Origin: a bacterium
GTDB taxonomy: Bacteria > B130-G9
Length of the DNA: 15,044 nt
Direction of reading: 5' to 3'
Assembly (NCBI GenBank): GCA_021160245.1
Contig: JAGHCW010000011.1
Coordinates: forward strand, 1 to 15,044
Position 1 is the first letter of the stretch. Each line of letters starts with the position of its first letter. The notes beneath the pieces are model-generated. The model was given only the letters and a program-made list of their open reading frames with translations. It searched no databases and was not told the origin of the DNA. Of this stretch, positions 9,868 to 15,044 are shown in pieces. The translations under genes were made by a program, and so were the position numbers.

Positions 9868-11010
9868 ATGAAGACATATTCGAATCCTGAGATCATAACC
9901 TGGGCTCGTGAAAGGGCCGGTATGACAGTTGAGGTCTTGGCCATAAAGATGAAGCGAGCCCCCGAAGAAATTGAGCAATGGGAGCGAGGAGAAGGGGAAC
10001 CGTCCTATGCCCAACTCGAGAAGCTGGCCTACAAATACCTGCACATACCATTGGCAGTATTTTTCTTCCCTGAGCCTCCGAAAGTTGAGGGTCTTGACAC
10101 GAAGTTTAGACGGTTGCCTGATTGCGAGTTGCGCCGGTTCTCCCCAGACACATACGAGAAGTTCCGCCTCGCTCAAGCCTATCAACTGTCTCTCTCAGAG
10201 CTCCTGCATGATTTTCGATTCGACAGATTAATCTTCCGGGATATCGTCCCCGGCCGCCTCAGTCCAAAAGCCCTAGCGATGAAATCGCGTGAGTACCTTG
10301 GGATCAGCATCAAGCAGCAATCAAGATTACGGTCTTGCGATGAAGCACTCAAGATGTGGCGTCATGCAGTTGAGGAAGTCGGCGTTTTCACATTCAAGGA
10401 CTCGTTTGACGATCGCTTCCTCTCGGGATTTTGTATCTTGGGTGAAGATCATCCGATCATATTCATAAATAATTCGAATTCGTTTTCTCGACAGGTGTTT
10501 ACGCTAATTCACGAACTCGGCCACATCCTATATGGAATCGACGGAGTCACAGACGTTAACGAATCCTATCTAGACGAGATGGCTGCAGATCAAAGAGGCC
10601 TCGAAATCAGCTGCAATAGCTTCGCGGGGCATTTCCTGGTACCGGATGATTCATTTGAGGATGACCTCCCGTATTTCCGTTCCCACGGGCACGATTCGAT
10701 CTCTGAGATAGCAGATCGCTATTCCGTCAGTCGTGAAGTGATCCTCCGCAAGCTTCTCATCCATGGCGCAATCGCAGAAGGTGAATATGAGGAAATGGCT
10801 GCTCAATGGAATCAGGACTATTTTCGCCTTAAGGGTGGGGGAAAGCACGGCAACTTCTACAGAACCCGTCTAGCATACCTTGGAGAGGGATTCACGCGAG
10901 TGGCTTTCGATAACTATTACAGCGGACGCATAAGTAGAACAGAGCTCGCAAAGCACTTGAATATGAACTCCCGCAACTTAGGGAAGCTCGAAAGCTACAT
11001 GCGGTGGTGA
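9868..11010 (+). CDS. XRE-family regulator with ImmA/IrrE-type zinc metallopeptidase domain
   Basis: This 380-residue protein joins a DNA-binding helix-turn-helix to a COG2856/ImmA-type peptidase domain. Residues 7-60 form the XRE-type HTH (ITWARERAGMTVEVLAIKMK, then EEIEQWERGEGEPSYAQLEKLA). The zinc site is HELGH at residues 215-219, preceded by RQVFTLI. A likely third ligand, E246, sits before CNSFAGHFLVP (249-259), as in other members. Homologues cleave or relieve repressors (ImmA, IrrE) or act as antitoxins of adjacent toxins. Here it overlaps a PIN-domain gene by a few bases, so an antitoxin or regulator role is the best inference, probably with autoregulation through the HTH. The start is ATG at 9868 with only a weak purine-rich site upstream. 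The sequence looks less G/C-rich than the genes before it, which suits a mobile module. Confidence 0.9.
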   Translation: MKTYSNPEIITWARERAGMTVEVLAIKMKRAPEEIEQWERGEGEPSYAQLEKLAYKYLHIPLAVFFFPEPPKVEGLDTKFRRLPDCELRRFSPDTYEKFRLAQAYQLSLSELLHDFRFDRLIFRDIVPGRLSPKALAMKSREYLGISIKQQSRLRSCDEALKMWRHAVEEVGVFTFKDSFDDRFLSGFCILGEDHPIIFINNSNSFSRQVFTLIHELGHILYGIDGVTDVNESYLDEMAADQRGLEISCNSFAGHFLVPDDSFEDDLPYFRSHGHDSISEIADRYSVSREVILRKLLIHGAIAEGEYEEMAAQWNQDYFRLKGGGKHGNFYRTRLAYLGEGFTRVAFDNYYSGRISRTELAKHLNMNSRNLGKLESYMRW

Positions 11011-11480
11011 TTGTGTATATTCTGGACACGAACGTCTTCATGATGCTTGGCCTTGCTTATTACCCATCACGGTTTGTGACAATCTGGCAACGAATTGATG
11101 AATTAGTCATGAAGGAGGAATTATTCTCTGTCAGGGAGGTCCGGCGAGAGATCGAGGAAAATTGTCCATCCGAAGATATTGGGGAATGGGTGCATAGGAA
11201 CCGACACATTTTCCGGAAACCTAATTCAGAGGAATTGAGGCAAGTATCGGACATTTTCAAACACAAGCAGTTTCTGGGATTCGTCACAAAGAAGAATATC
11301 CTTCAGGGAAGGCCGGTAGCTGATCCCTTCATCGTGGCCGCTGCGAAGATCCATCATGGGATTGTTGTCACGATGGAGAAATTCAAGAGTGGTGGAGCGA
11401 GAATACCGACAGCGTGTGAGACGTTCGGCGTGAGATGTATCGATCTAGAGGAGTTTCTGGAGAGAGAGAATCTGCCGTGA
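11004..11480 (+). CDS. DUF4411 family PIN-domain protein, probable VapC-like toxin
   Basis: PIN-domain proteins of this group are predicted Mg-dependent ribonucleases. The 158-residue product shows the PIN layout: VYILDTNVFM at the N-terminus with D8, SVREVRREIEE with E45 or E49, and GRPVADPFIVAAA with D107; a C-terminal VVTMEKF strand closes the fold. The VADPF-IVA-A pattern and length fit DUF4411. GTG at 11004 or 11007 overlaps the TGA of the upstream ImmA gene; the 11007 choice gives a GTGA overlap. With no separate RBS, translational coupling is likely. DUF4411 genes are often found beside XRE-ImmA genes, so the pair looks like a type II toxin-antitoxin module. Toxicity itself is inferred. 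Confidence 0.87.
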   Translation: MVIVYILDTNVFMMLGLAYYPSRFVTIWQRIDELVMKEELFSVREVRREIEENCPSEDIGEWVHRNRHIFRKPNSEELRQVSDIFKHKQFLGFVTKKNILQGRPVADPFIVAAAKIHHGIVVTMEKFKSGGARIPTACETFGVRCIDLEEFLERENLP

Positions 11481-11728: not shown

Positions 11729-12655
11729 CTATAAGGAAGTGCCATCCCGCGCGAGCAGTTTCTCCCACTCGCTGTCAACCTCGGTCTGGAACTCCTCGAT
11801 GAGGTGCTCGTTTTCGGGCTTTAGGATGTGGGAGTATCTTCCCTGCATCTTCAACCACTCAATTAACGGGAGTTTCTCCTTCGGCTTGTACGTGATCTTC
11901 AGCTTGCCATCAACTACCTCATACAGCGGCCAGAAGCATGTATCGACCGCGACCCTCGCTATTTCTAGCGAATCCACCATCGGGATTCGCCAGCCACGAT
12001 GGCACGGCGACAGGATGTTCAAAAAAGCCGGGCCATCGGTCGCAAAGGCCTTCTCAGCCTTACCGACAACGTCCCGCCAGTTATGAGGTGAGCACTGCGC
12101 CACATAAGGGATATGGTGCGCTGCTATGATAGCCGCAAGGTCCTTTCTATGCTGAGGCTTCCCGGGGATTACCTCACCCGCCGGGCACGTCGTCGTGCTT
12201 GCCCTAAATGGCGTAGCGCTTGACCGCTGGATGCCCGTGTTCATATACGCCTCGTTATCGTAGCAGACATAAACGAACTTGTGGCCTCGTTCGAGCGCCC
12301 CAGACAGAGCCTGGATGCCGATATCGTAGGTTCCGCCATCGCCGCCGAACGCCACGAAGTTGACGTCCTCTTTGTACTTGCCCTGCTTTTTCAATGCGCG
12401 ATACATTGTCTCAACGCCCGTTATTGTGGCGGCCGCATTCTCGAACGCATTGTGTATCCAGGGAATCTTCCAAGCAGAGTATGGATAGATCGTCGTTCCG
12501 ACTTCGAGGCAGCCCGTCGCACTCGCGGCGATGACCGGCTTGTCGGACGCCAGAAGCACCTGCCTCGCAACGATGCTGGCCGCACAGCCCGCGCAGAGGC
12601 GATGCCCGGGGCCAAGGCCATCGTAGCGGTGTGTCAGCTCCTTCAGAGTAACCAT
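11729..12655 (-). CDS. porB: 2-oxoacid (pyruvate):ferredoxin oxidoreductase beta subunit
   Basis: The beta subunit carries thiamine diphosphate (TPP) and the proximal [4Fe-4S] cluster of the cytoplasmic enzyme that oxidatively decarboxylates a 2-oxoacid to acyl-CoA and reduces ferredoxin. The TPP motif is GGDGG at residues 104-108 with the closing DNEAYMNTG at 133-141. The four cluster cysteines are visible: C21 and C24 (LCAGCAA), C49 (ASATGCLEV) and C218 (ILSPCHRGW), so the cofactor sites look intact. The 308-residue length is normal. The start is ATG, with AGGAGG a few bases upstream (minus strand, about 12663-12668). It is the last gene of porG-porD-porA-porB, 24 nt after porA. Pyruvate is the most likely substrate from gene order and subunit size, but 2-ketoisovalerate or another 2-oxoacid cannot be excluded. 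Confidence 0.92.
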   Translation of the reverse strand: MVTLKELTHRYDGLGPGHRLCAGCAASIVARQVLLASDKPVIAASATGCLEVGTTIYPYSAWKIPWIHNAFENAAATITGVETMYRALKKQGKYKEDVNFVAFGGDGGTYDIGIQALSGALERGHKFVYVCYDNEAYMNTGIQRSSATPFRASTTTCPAGEVIPGKPQHRKDLAAIIAAHHIPYVAQCSPHNWRDVVGKAEKAFATDGPAFLNILSPCHRGWRIPMVDSLEIARVAVDTCFWPLYEVVDGKLKITYKPKEKLPLIEWLKMQGRYSHILKPENEHLIEEFQTEVDSEWEKLLARDGTSL

Positions 12656-12679
12656 TTTATTCCTCCTAAGATCAATCGA

Positions 12680-13861
12680 TTAGCTTCTAACCGTGATGTA
12701 GTCAAAGACCTTCTCAACCTTGCCCGTGTCCGCCACCTTCTTCAGATCGCCAAAGACATCCACAATATCCTCGATATTGAGGTCGCGGCCTCCGAGCCCA
12801 TAGACAGACTGGATGACTTTCGGAACCTTAGGCAGATTGCAAATAGCGGAGCGAACCTCATGAGCAACTGGCCCACCCTGAGCGCCGAACGAATCGCACC
12901 TGTCCAGAACCGCGATCGCCTTGCAATGCGCGAGGCTCTGGGCGATGAGCTCCGCCGGAAACGGCCTGAACATCCTGATCTTCAGGAGGCCGGCCTTAAT
13001 GCCCTGCTCACGCATTTTGTCAACCACGGCCCGAGTTGAGCCAGCGGCTGAGTTCAGAACAACTATCGCAACATCAGCGTCATCGAGCTTATACGTCTCG
13101 ATAAGACCATACTTACGCCCACTCAGCGCCTCGAACCTCTTCGCCGACGCAAGCACGGCGTCCGGCACGAATTTCATCGCCTCGTGCTGTTGCCTCTTGT
13201 GCTCAATATAGTAGTCCTGAAGGTCCAAAGGCCCGAATGTCTTCGGATGCTCCAGGTCCAAGAGCGCAAATTGCGGCTTGTATTCGCCAACGAAATCCTT
13301 GACTTCTTTGTCCTCAAGCAGCTCCACGCGCTCGATTGAGTGTGAGATGATGAACCCGTCAAAGCAGACCATGATCGGCAGAAGCACGTTCTTGTCCTCG
13401 GCAATCGGCAGGGCCATGATCAGGTTATCATAAGCTTCCTGGGCATTCTCAGAGTAAATCTGTATCCAGCCCGAATCCCTTGCGCCCATCGAGTCTGAAT
13501 GATCGCAATGGATGTTGATTGGGGCGCTCATCGCCCTGTTCACGACGGTCATGGCAATCGGCAGACGGTTGCCTGAGGCGCAGTAAAGTATCTCCCACAT
13601 AAGCGCCAGGCCGTTAGCTGCGGTAACGGTCATGGCCCTTCCGCCAGCCGCCGCCGCTCCCACGCACGCGCTCATTGCGCTATGCTCACTCTCGACAGTC
13701 ATCATCTCCGTCTGGATTAGTCCGTCGCTGACGAACCCGGAAAACGCCTGAACCACCTCAGTCGCGGGCGTGATCGGATACGCCGCCACAACATCAGGTT
13801 CTATCTGACGCATGGCCTCGGCGGCAACCTCGTTGCCGGTGTATGCAACTACTCGTTTCAC
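12680..13861 (-). CDS. porA: 2-oxoacid (pyruvate):ferredoxin oxidoreductase alpha subunit
   Basis: The alpha subunit forms the other face of the TPP/substrate site. AAYPITPATE at residues 26-35 is the YPITP motif near the TPP and substrate site. MTVESEHSAMSACVGAAAAGGR at about 54-75, given here as VESEHSA then GAAAAGGR, carries the conserved Glu59 expected to activate TPP. The C-terminal part has RMFRPFP and the region IAVLDRCDSFGAQGG typical of domain II. At 393 residues it has the length of stand-alone alpha subunits, not of fused single-chain enzymes. The start is GTG at 13861 with GGGAGG eight bases upstream (13870-13875). It lies 34 nt after porD. Substrate specificity is not readable with certainty. 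Confidence 0.92.
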   Translation of the reverse strand: MKRVVAYTGNEVAAEAMRQIEPDVVAAYPITPATEVVQAFSGFVSDGLIQTEMMTVESEHSAMSACVGAAAAGGRAMTVTAANGLALMWEILYCASGNRLPIAMTVVNRAMSAPINIHCDHSDSMGARDSGWIQIYSENAQEAYDNLIMALPIAEDKNVLLPIMVCFDGFIISHSIERVELLEDKEVKDFVGEYKPQFALLDLEHPKTFGPLDLQDYYIEHKRQQHEAMKFVPDAVLASAKRFEALSGRKYGLIETYKLDDADVAIVVLNSAAGSTRAVVDKMREQGIKAGLLKIRMFRPFPAELIAQSLAHCKAIAVLDRCDSFGAQGGPVAHEVRSAICNLPKVPKVIQSVYGLGGRDLNIEDIVDVFGDLKKVADTGKVEKVFDYITVRS

Positions 13862-13895
13862 TTATATTTCCTCCCGATTTAGGATTGGCAATCCC

Positions 13896-14189
13896 CTACG
13901 TCTCCTCGATTACCATCGTTATTGCTTGCACCTTGTCTGGACACACGCTAGCGCAAAGCCCACAGCCCTTGCAGTGGAAGTAGTCGATGCCCGTCATCTT
14001 CTCGTTCTTAACCTGAATCGACGAATCAGGGCAGTATATCCAACACTGCAAGCAGTGGATGCACTTGTCCGGGTCCCAGATTGGCTTGCTGGACCGCCAC
14101 GTGCCCGTCTCATACTTGGCAGCATTACCCGCCTCAAGAATCATCCCGCCAATCGGTATGTCTTTCCAGCCTGGAAGTTTCTCGCTCAT
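13896..14189 (-). CDS. porD: 2-oxoacid:ferredoxin oxidoreductase delta subunit (2x[4Fe-4S] ferredoxin-like)
   Basis: The delta subunit passes electrons from the catalytic core to external ferredoxin. Two complete CxxCxxCxxxCP motifs are present: C43, C46, C49, C53 (CIHCLQCWIYCP) and C73, C76, C79, C83 (CKGCGLCASVCP), each able to hold a [4Fe-4S] cluster. The 97-residue length and the N-terminal extension before the first cluster fit PorD rather than a free ferredoxin. Its ATG overlaps the TGA of porG in an ATGA arrangement at 14186-14189, so the two are translationally coupled. Confidence 0.93.
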   Translation of the reverse strand: MSEKLPGWKDIPIGGMILEAGNAAKYETGTWRSSKPIWDPDKCIHCLQCWIYCPDSSIQVKNEKMTGIDYFHCKGCGLCASVCPDKVQAITMVIEET

Positions 14190-14761
14190 TCTCCCTTAAC
14201 CTCCTCGAACCCTCGTTCCGCCATCTTGATGTTGGCGTCAATGATCTTGTTAGAAAACTTCTTGCCGAGCCGCAGCTTGATCGCGCCCTTTAGCGTCTCA
14301 AGGGTAATCTGGCCTGATATCTTCGCTATCGCGCCCAACATCGGCGTATTCGGCAGCAGCCGCTCCAGCTCGTCACGTGAGATGCCATTGGCATCTATTG
14401 TGAACAATTTGGCGCCCGAAAGCCCCATGGTTTTGCGGATTTCGCTCGCGGGCTTAGTTGTGTTGACGAGGTATATCGCATCCTCCGGGGCGCCCTTCTT
14501 GACGTCAATGCCGCCCGTCAGAAGAGTCGCGTCAACCACCGCCACATAACGCGGATTCTTCACCGCGCAATGGATATGGATGTCCTCGTCACTGACCCGA
14601 TTGTACGCCGCGAGTGGCGCGCCAGCACGCTCTGGGCCGTATTCAGGGAATGCCTGAATATATTTGCCCTGGGCAAGCGCCGCCTCAGCAAACAACTTGG
14701 CCGCGGTTACCGTCCCCTGGCCGCCTCGTCCGTGCCAGCGGAACTCCAGAATCTCAGTCAT
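14186..14761 (-). CDS. porG: 2-oxoacid:ferredoxin oxidoreductase gamma subunit
   Basis: The gamma subunit is the CoA-binding and assembly partner of the heterotetramer. The family signature WHGRGGQGTVTAAKL is at residues 9-23, followed by FPEYGPERAGAP. The frame stays open upstream to a TTG at 14998, but the true start is ATG at 14761: an AAAGGAG site sits seven bases before it, the GRGGQG motif then falls at the usual position, and the upstream extension has no family similarity. With this start the protein has 191 residues, normal for PorG. It is the first gene of the operon; the promoter should lie in 14770-14960 on the minus strand, though I find no clear -35/-10 pair. Confidence 0.93.
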   Translation of the reverse strand: MTEILEFRWHGRGGQGTVTAAKLFAEAALAQGKYIQAFPEYGPERAGAPLAAYNRVSDEDIHIHCAVKNPRYVAVVDATLLTGGIDVKKGAPEDAIYLVNTTKPASEIRKTMGLSGAKLFTIDANGISRDELERLLPNTPMLGAIAKISGQITLETLKGAIKLRLGKKFSNKIIDANIKMAERGFEEVKGE

Positions 14762-14799
14762 CGCTATGCTCCTTTCATAGAGAACTGCAAAATAATGAA

Positions 14800-14820: not shown

Positions 14821-14967
14821 ATAATAGACAACGGACGGGATTGTAGTGAGGCATTCCTGCAGGGTCAAGTGAATATGGGATTGTGAGCAGGAGTTTTCGT
14901 ATTTGAGTTGATGATGAGTGAGTTGTTGGCTCCGGGGCTTTGTTTTGGTGAAGAAAGAAGTGGAATA

Positions 14968-15035
14968 GAGGTTCCTCCTTTGATATAGTTCGAGGCAATG
15001 TTCTTTAACCTAAATAGAACTATAGGAGGAACCTC
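14968..15035 (+). promoter_or_regulatory. Long inverted repeat sequestering a ribosome binding site
   Basis: GAGGTTCCTCC (14968-14978) is the exact reverse complement of GGAGGAACCTC (15025-15035), and TATAGTTC (14984-14991) of GAACTATA (15017-15024). The arms make 19 base pairs, broken only by a five-base bulge (TTTGA, 14979-14983) on the left, with a 25-base loop. The right arm contains AGGAGG directly before ATG at 15037. In RNA the Shine-Dalgarno sequence would therefore be fully paired. This could be a translation-control hairpin of the following gene, or the end of a mobile element whose transposase RBS is hidden, as known for IS200. Both arms carry the same AGGAGGAACCTC on opposite strands. 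Confidence 0.65.
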
Positions 15036-15036
15036 G

Positions 15037-15044
15037 ATGATAGA
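15037..15044 (+). CDS. Start of a further gene at the right edge, product unknown
   Basis: ATG ATA GA follows a strong AGGAGG site (15024-15029) at a suitable distance. Only two codons fall inside the window, so the product cannot be named. The start is inferred from the RBS spacing and from the hairpin that covers it. A transposase is one possibility. Confidence 0.42.

Follow-up and report, generated by a model that had tools for sequence, protein, structure and literature searches.

A hairpin over the Shine-Dalgarno sequence of an outlying IS4-family transposase gene as a probable fold-back gate against read-through

In IS10 and IS50, a hairpin forms over the transposase translation start only in transcripts initiated outside the element, as the element's own transcript lacks one of the two arms. 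This fold-back has been established for a few well-studied elements such as these, whereas the comparable arrangement described here appears near-universal in a divergent clade spread across phyla. IS200 is a further point of reference and is not known to generate a target duplication. PMC2965389 cites Davis et al. 1985 for the protection of Tn10 from external promoters and Beuzon et al. 1999 for a stem hiding the ribosome-binding site (RBS) of the IS200 transposase. The leader of the ISPpu9 transposase mRNA, 245 nt long, likewise buries the RBS and is proposed to be opened by an antisense RNA (PMC8450116). De Palmenaer et al. 2008 (PMC2266710) divide the IS4 family into the subgroups IS4Sa, IS4, IS231, ISH8 and ISPepr1, and define it by DDE residues spaced as D(60-110)D(100-150)E together with a YREK signature.

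A hairpin and a transposase gene start at the contig edge

The window, meaning the whole stretch of DNA that was analysed (15,044 bp), is an entire contig, C110, of a Coatesbacteria-family genome of 3.43 Mb in 244 contigs. Its right edge carries the following features.

14888..15044, + strand: left 157 bp of an insertion sequence (IS) assigned to the IS4 family, which recurs where contigs C85 and C213 end and is homologous to the intact 1.44-kb element at L049
14888..14902, + strand: left terminal inverted repeat CAGGAGTTTTCGTAT, common to IS and MITE copies and matching the right ends TACGAAAACTCCT
14961..14989, + strand: predicted transposase promoter, from consensus scoring only (1 of 100 shuffles equal)
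14968..14991, + strand: hairpin 5' arm, with the bulge TTTGA at 14979-14983, from folding; it has a counterpart in all 24 homologous leaders tested
14992..15016, + strand: hairpin loop, from folding; the predicted start of the element's own transcript falls here
15017..15035, + strand: hairpin 3' arm, from sequence and folding
15024..15029, + strand: Shine-Dalgarno sequence (SD) AGGAGG, within the 3' arm and 7 nt 5' of the ATG at 15037
15037..15044, + strand: start of the transposase gene, in which the contig ends; C85 continues it as MIDNAKLLHR, and L049 holds a 424-aa homolog

The stem is made up of 11 + 8 bp, with 14968-14978 (GAGGTTCCTCC) and 14984-14991 (TATAGTTC) pairing with 15017-15035 (GAACTATAGGAGGAACCTC). 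The earlier note had thus correctly described arms that pair perfectly save for one five-base bulge, with AGGAGG in the right arm (15024-15029) ahead of an ATG at 15037. The folding energy of the 83-nt leader was −27.9 kcal/mol, compared with −16.7 ± 2.8 for shuffled sequences (z = −4.0), and the RNA folding suggested in that note gave a stem more stable than all 200 shuffles. Accessibility of the SD in the window was approximately 0%, and none of 200 SD-preserving shuffles was equally closed. The open reading frame does continue beyond 15037, as had been anticipated: C85 supplies 22 more bases, and MIDNAKLLHR resembles MGDDAKLVYR of the complete 424-aa transposase.

Three contigs (C110, C85 and C213) terminate in the same leader; their stop points are at most 22 bases apart, which marks a collapsed repeat. 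The note had proposed a search for other genomic copies, and C85 and C213 are those found besides the window, with no additional exact leader copies in this genome beyond the three collapsed contig ends. The three copies are identical over 77 bases from the hairpin onward, and the 80 bases before it contain about nine differences between the window and C85/C213. Matches of GAGGTTCCTCC in C33 and C202 were rejected as chance, not element copies. The closest relative carrying the same leader, G003, belongs to the window's family. In the intact relative L049, the leader with its hairpin is followed by the 424-aa DDE transposase, and the element is bounded by the inverted repeats AGGAGTTTTCGCATT and GAATACGAAAACTCCT. 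Three further contigs of the window's own genome (C86, C80 and C227) start within the 3' half of the same transposase gene and are 76-80% identical. From the homologous leader and transposase in L049 and these 3'-half contigs, it follows that the window ends 157 bp inside an IS. The suspicion that this was the end of an IS was therefore well founded, the element being an insertion sequence with a hairpin over its transposase RBS, but the repeat that the two arms carry in opposite orientation does not represent paired element ends. The AGGAGGAACCTC inverted repeat is internal, and the true left end, CAGGAGTTTTCG, lies at 14888, 80 bp upstream of the hairpin. When the right junction of the window copy was sought by target duplication, none of the contigs had a right end that fitted.

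The transposase matches Pfam DDE_Tnp_1. Its catalytic residues are D103, D190 and E312 in P0001, invariant in alignment A3 and separated by 86 and 121 residues, within the IS4 spacing. The Y(2)R(3)E(6)K signature is complete (Y305, R308, E312 and K319 in P0001) and invariant in six homologs, and the transposase is encoded by a single ORF without a frameshift (424 aa, L049). Target duplications of the IS4 family are about one helix turn (7-13 bp); here, MITEs that share the element's ends have duplications of 8-11 bp and several IS homologs have 11-13 bp, with none visible at L049. The direct repeats flanking L103 and L108, at 18 and 17 bp, exceed the 8-13 bp found in the rest of the clade. Membership of IS701, ISH3 or IS1634, which are characterised by an incomplete YREK and duplications of 4-6 bp, was considered and rejected, given the complete YREK and the duplications of 8-11 bp. 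By profile search, the only solved relative is the Tn5 transposase of IS50 (E = 5 × 10−6). None of the curated NCBIfam IS4/IS701 models reached its cut-off (best 49 and 46 bits versus cut-offs of 115-250), which places the transposase in an outlying group of the superfamily. The element is thus classed as an outlying IS4-family IS by its anatomy rather than by a model match. It shares with the IS4 subgroups, as PMC2266710 describes them, the YREK signature, the DDE spacing, the single ORF and target duplications of around 10 bp; the CA------T pattern given there for IS4Sa also holds at its left end, whereas its right end begins with G, not C. The IS200-type (Y1/HUH) element envisaged in the note did not hold up, as the element encodes an IS4-superfamily DDE transposase. 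Although IS200 (IS200/IS605 family) also has a stem over the transposase RBS, it encodes a Y1 transposase, whereas the present element combines a DDE transposase with terminal inverted repeats and target duplications of 8-11 bp.

A single 18-base match in viral contigs falls inside a coding gene and was rejected as chance, and protein scans of the viral contigs found no relative. Plasmids gave one weak partial match. Among phage records there was one gut contig; its transposase is 27% identical, and it too has a weak hairpin.

Arm pairing across the clade and the proposed gate

Homologs with 26-41% identity were found in several other phylum-level groups and on one gut contig. Twenty-four leaders, including that of the window, were long enough to be tested; L084 and several fragments with incomplete leaders were left out. 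In the minimum-energy structures the SD pairs with an upstream arm in 24/24, so the comparison of homologous leaders that the note had called for turned up no locus that keeps the gene and has unpaired arms. SD accessibility was lower in the clade leaders (median 0.12) than in 80 further genes with an SD at the loci analysed (0.44, P = 1 × 10−10), although single-sequence accessibility is a blunt measure in AT-rich leaders, L097 scoring no better than its shuffles. Weak arms were seen in two leaders (L096 and L097). The arm sequences are unrelated among groups, as in GGGTCTCC/GGAGACCC, CGACGCTCC/GGAGCGTCG, GAAATGCTCCTT/AAGGAGCATTTC and AACTCCTTGGA/TCCAAGGAGTT. An arm-swap test is sharper: own arms paired at an average of −20.5 kcal/mol and swapped arms at −10.9 (z = −12.5, 20,000 permutations), a z that overstates the number of independent events as some leaders are mutually related, while the unrelated groups alone still show the pattern. 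Thus, pairing is co-maintained without sequence conservation, and the hairpin is a hallmark of a broad transposase clade. Such complete turnover of arm sequence implies that pairing itself is what selection keeps.

We located the predicted promoter of the window at TGGAAT (14961-14966) and, after a spacer of 17, an extended −10 element TGA-TATAGT (14981-14989), with a predicted start at approximately 14996. Among the promoter-like sites of most leaders, the one ranked first or second places its −35 immediately 5' of the hairpin 5' arm and its −10 in or directly after that arm, and these arm-straddling sites score higher than in shuffled sequences (8.5 versus 4.9, P = 1 × 10−7). The RBS is predicted to be paired in the read-through RNA of 24/24 leaders, as fold-back demands, and in every one the SD is more exposed in RNA from the predicted start, the median accessibility rising from 0.11 to 0.65. 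The predicted native RNA of the window retains a small competing fold (−5.8 versus −27.9 kcal/mol), and its SD accessibility is only 0.23.

We infer both the position of the promoter and a fold-back function from this arrangement. A neighbouring host gene's transcript running into the element would contain both arms and fold, burying the SD, and no transposase would be made. The element's own weak promoter would straddle the 5' arm, so that its transcript would begin in the loop, lack the 5' arm and be translatable. The hairpin is therefore probably a translational gate of an IS4-family transposase gene, acting through fold-back against read-through. Control by sequestration, as suspected in the note, agrees with the predicted burial of the SD by the hairpin, but the undescribed translational switch offered there is unneeded because fold-back protection against read-through accounts for the anatomy. 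The proposed gate logic is the same as in IS10/Tn10 and IS50/Tn5, both of the IS4 family, and the Tn5 transposase is also the only solved profile relative. The transposase subgroup and the ends are different, however, the leader sequence is unshared, and the arrangement predicted here is clade-wide.

The hairpin could instead be switchable: the normal mRNA would contain both arms and be opened by an antisense RNA, by a protein or by temperature, along the lines suggested for ISPpu9 or in the manner of an RNA thermometer. The buried RBS in the 5'-UTR structure of ISPpu9 (PMC8450116) offers a precedent, and the window promoter that speaks for fold-back is itself a prediction only. We consider this unlikely, as the best promoter-like sites imply a transcript without the 5' arm across many unrelated leaders, the groups share no common loop or arm sequence of the kind that a ligand or protein site would need, and the leader has no match in Rfam. 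Where the ISPpu9 leader is long, that of the present element is short, and the 5' arm is predicted to be missing from the element's own transcript.

There is a much slimmer chance that the inverted repeat works as DNA, either as a transposase or host-factor site or as a cruciform, with burial of the RBS a side effect. The repeat does lie 80 bp from the left end, where an IS may have subterminal sites. However, its 3' arm overlaps the SD ahead of the ATG throughout the clade, which a DNA site would not need, and the MITEs also argue against it. In this genome and two relatives, MITEs match the IS at its ends and over the first 85-90 bp, diverging where the hairpin 5' arm begins. These MITEs have target duplications of 8-11 bp and no hairpin, so the hairpin is unneeded in cis for mobility; it is an expression device, not an element end. 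Least credible of all is that the stem is a chance palindrome or an intrinsic terminator that halts transcripts as they enter the IS: 5' terminators that block incoming transcription are known in IS (PMC2965389), but this stem lacks a following U run (GATGATAGA), and chance is ruled out by the shuffles and the arm-swap test.

The IS ends are also found on several families of MITEs, about 180-400 bp long (L066, L068, L070-L074 and L078). These MITEs contain internal short hairpins, e.g. ATCCCTTTCAGGGAT, and exist in dozens of copies.

Apparent insertion beside −35 boxes and the neighbouring genes

We compared aligned flanks of IS and MITE copies, setting the right or left class of each end from the inner sequence and not from the flank. 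TTGA was present 12-15 bp outward of 23/30 right ends, compared with 2/34 left ends. Aligned on TTGA, the right-end flanks extend to TTGACA, and the −10 score has its maximum exactly at spacers of 17 and 18 (P = 5 × 10−7). The longest ORF beyond the right ends mostly runs in the same direction. Among IS relatives in other phyla, TTGACA was found within 60 nt past the transposase stop in 16/23, versus 2.5% of control windows (P = 4 × 10−21), typically 2-4 bp past the target duplication. In the AT-rich phylum of G280 a −10 element downstream of TTGACA was not demonstrable, and 'promoter' there means TTGACA alone. The loci were as follows.

Right-end flanks considered for TTGACA-type −35 boxes: L004, L005, L008, L061, L062, L067, L071, L075, L117-L135, L148-L150 and L166
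Homologs examined for TTGACA downstream: L053, L087 and L092-L114

The insertions of this clade thus appear to be oriented and to lie immediately upstream of −35 boxes. Some IS4 elements are noted for strong target-arm specificity in PMC2266710; our search for reports of IS4 elements directing their insertion to promoters, with subscription papers mostly outside its coverage, found none. We see roughly even odds for a joint reading in which an unnamed, widespread IS4-superfamily clade combines a right end 12-15 bp upstream of TTGACA with a promoter-straddling hairpin that silences transposase translation from host transcripts, its oriented −35 preference placing it between genes yet amid transcription. 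Insertion next to a −35 box would be a reason for strong shielding from host transcription, and the oriented insertion makes this bacterial IS a testable example of insertion directed to promoters. The preference could come from direct DNA recognition or from contact with RNA polymerase. Either the transposase reads TTGACA in DNA, with selection leaving the survivors in promoters, or promoters are recognised as such. At L096, an array of TTGACA-N5-7-TGTCA repeats, possibly operator sites, adjoins the right end past the transposase stop, and TTGACA itself may accordingly be the recognised feature.

In the window copy, only the left junction is present. A predicted promoter lies 19 bp outside this end.

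14840..14868, − strand: predicted promoter of the divergent por operon, TTGACC (14863-14868), N17, TACAAT (14840-14845), from sequence and flank analysis

The operon, of the pyruvate:ferredoxin oxidoreductase type (11729-14764), reads leftward, and the IS, lying 19 bp ahead of the operon's predicted promoter, may change how the operon is expressed. Further into the window, at 9868-11480, a gene for a protein with an HTH and an ImmA/IrrE peptidase (M78) domain is overlapped by one for a DUF4411 (PIN-like) protein, and the two look like a toxin-antitoxin pair.
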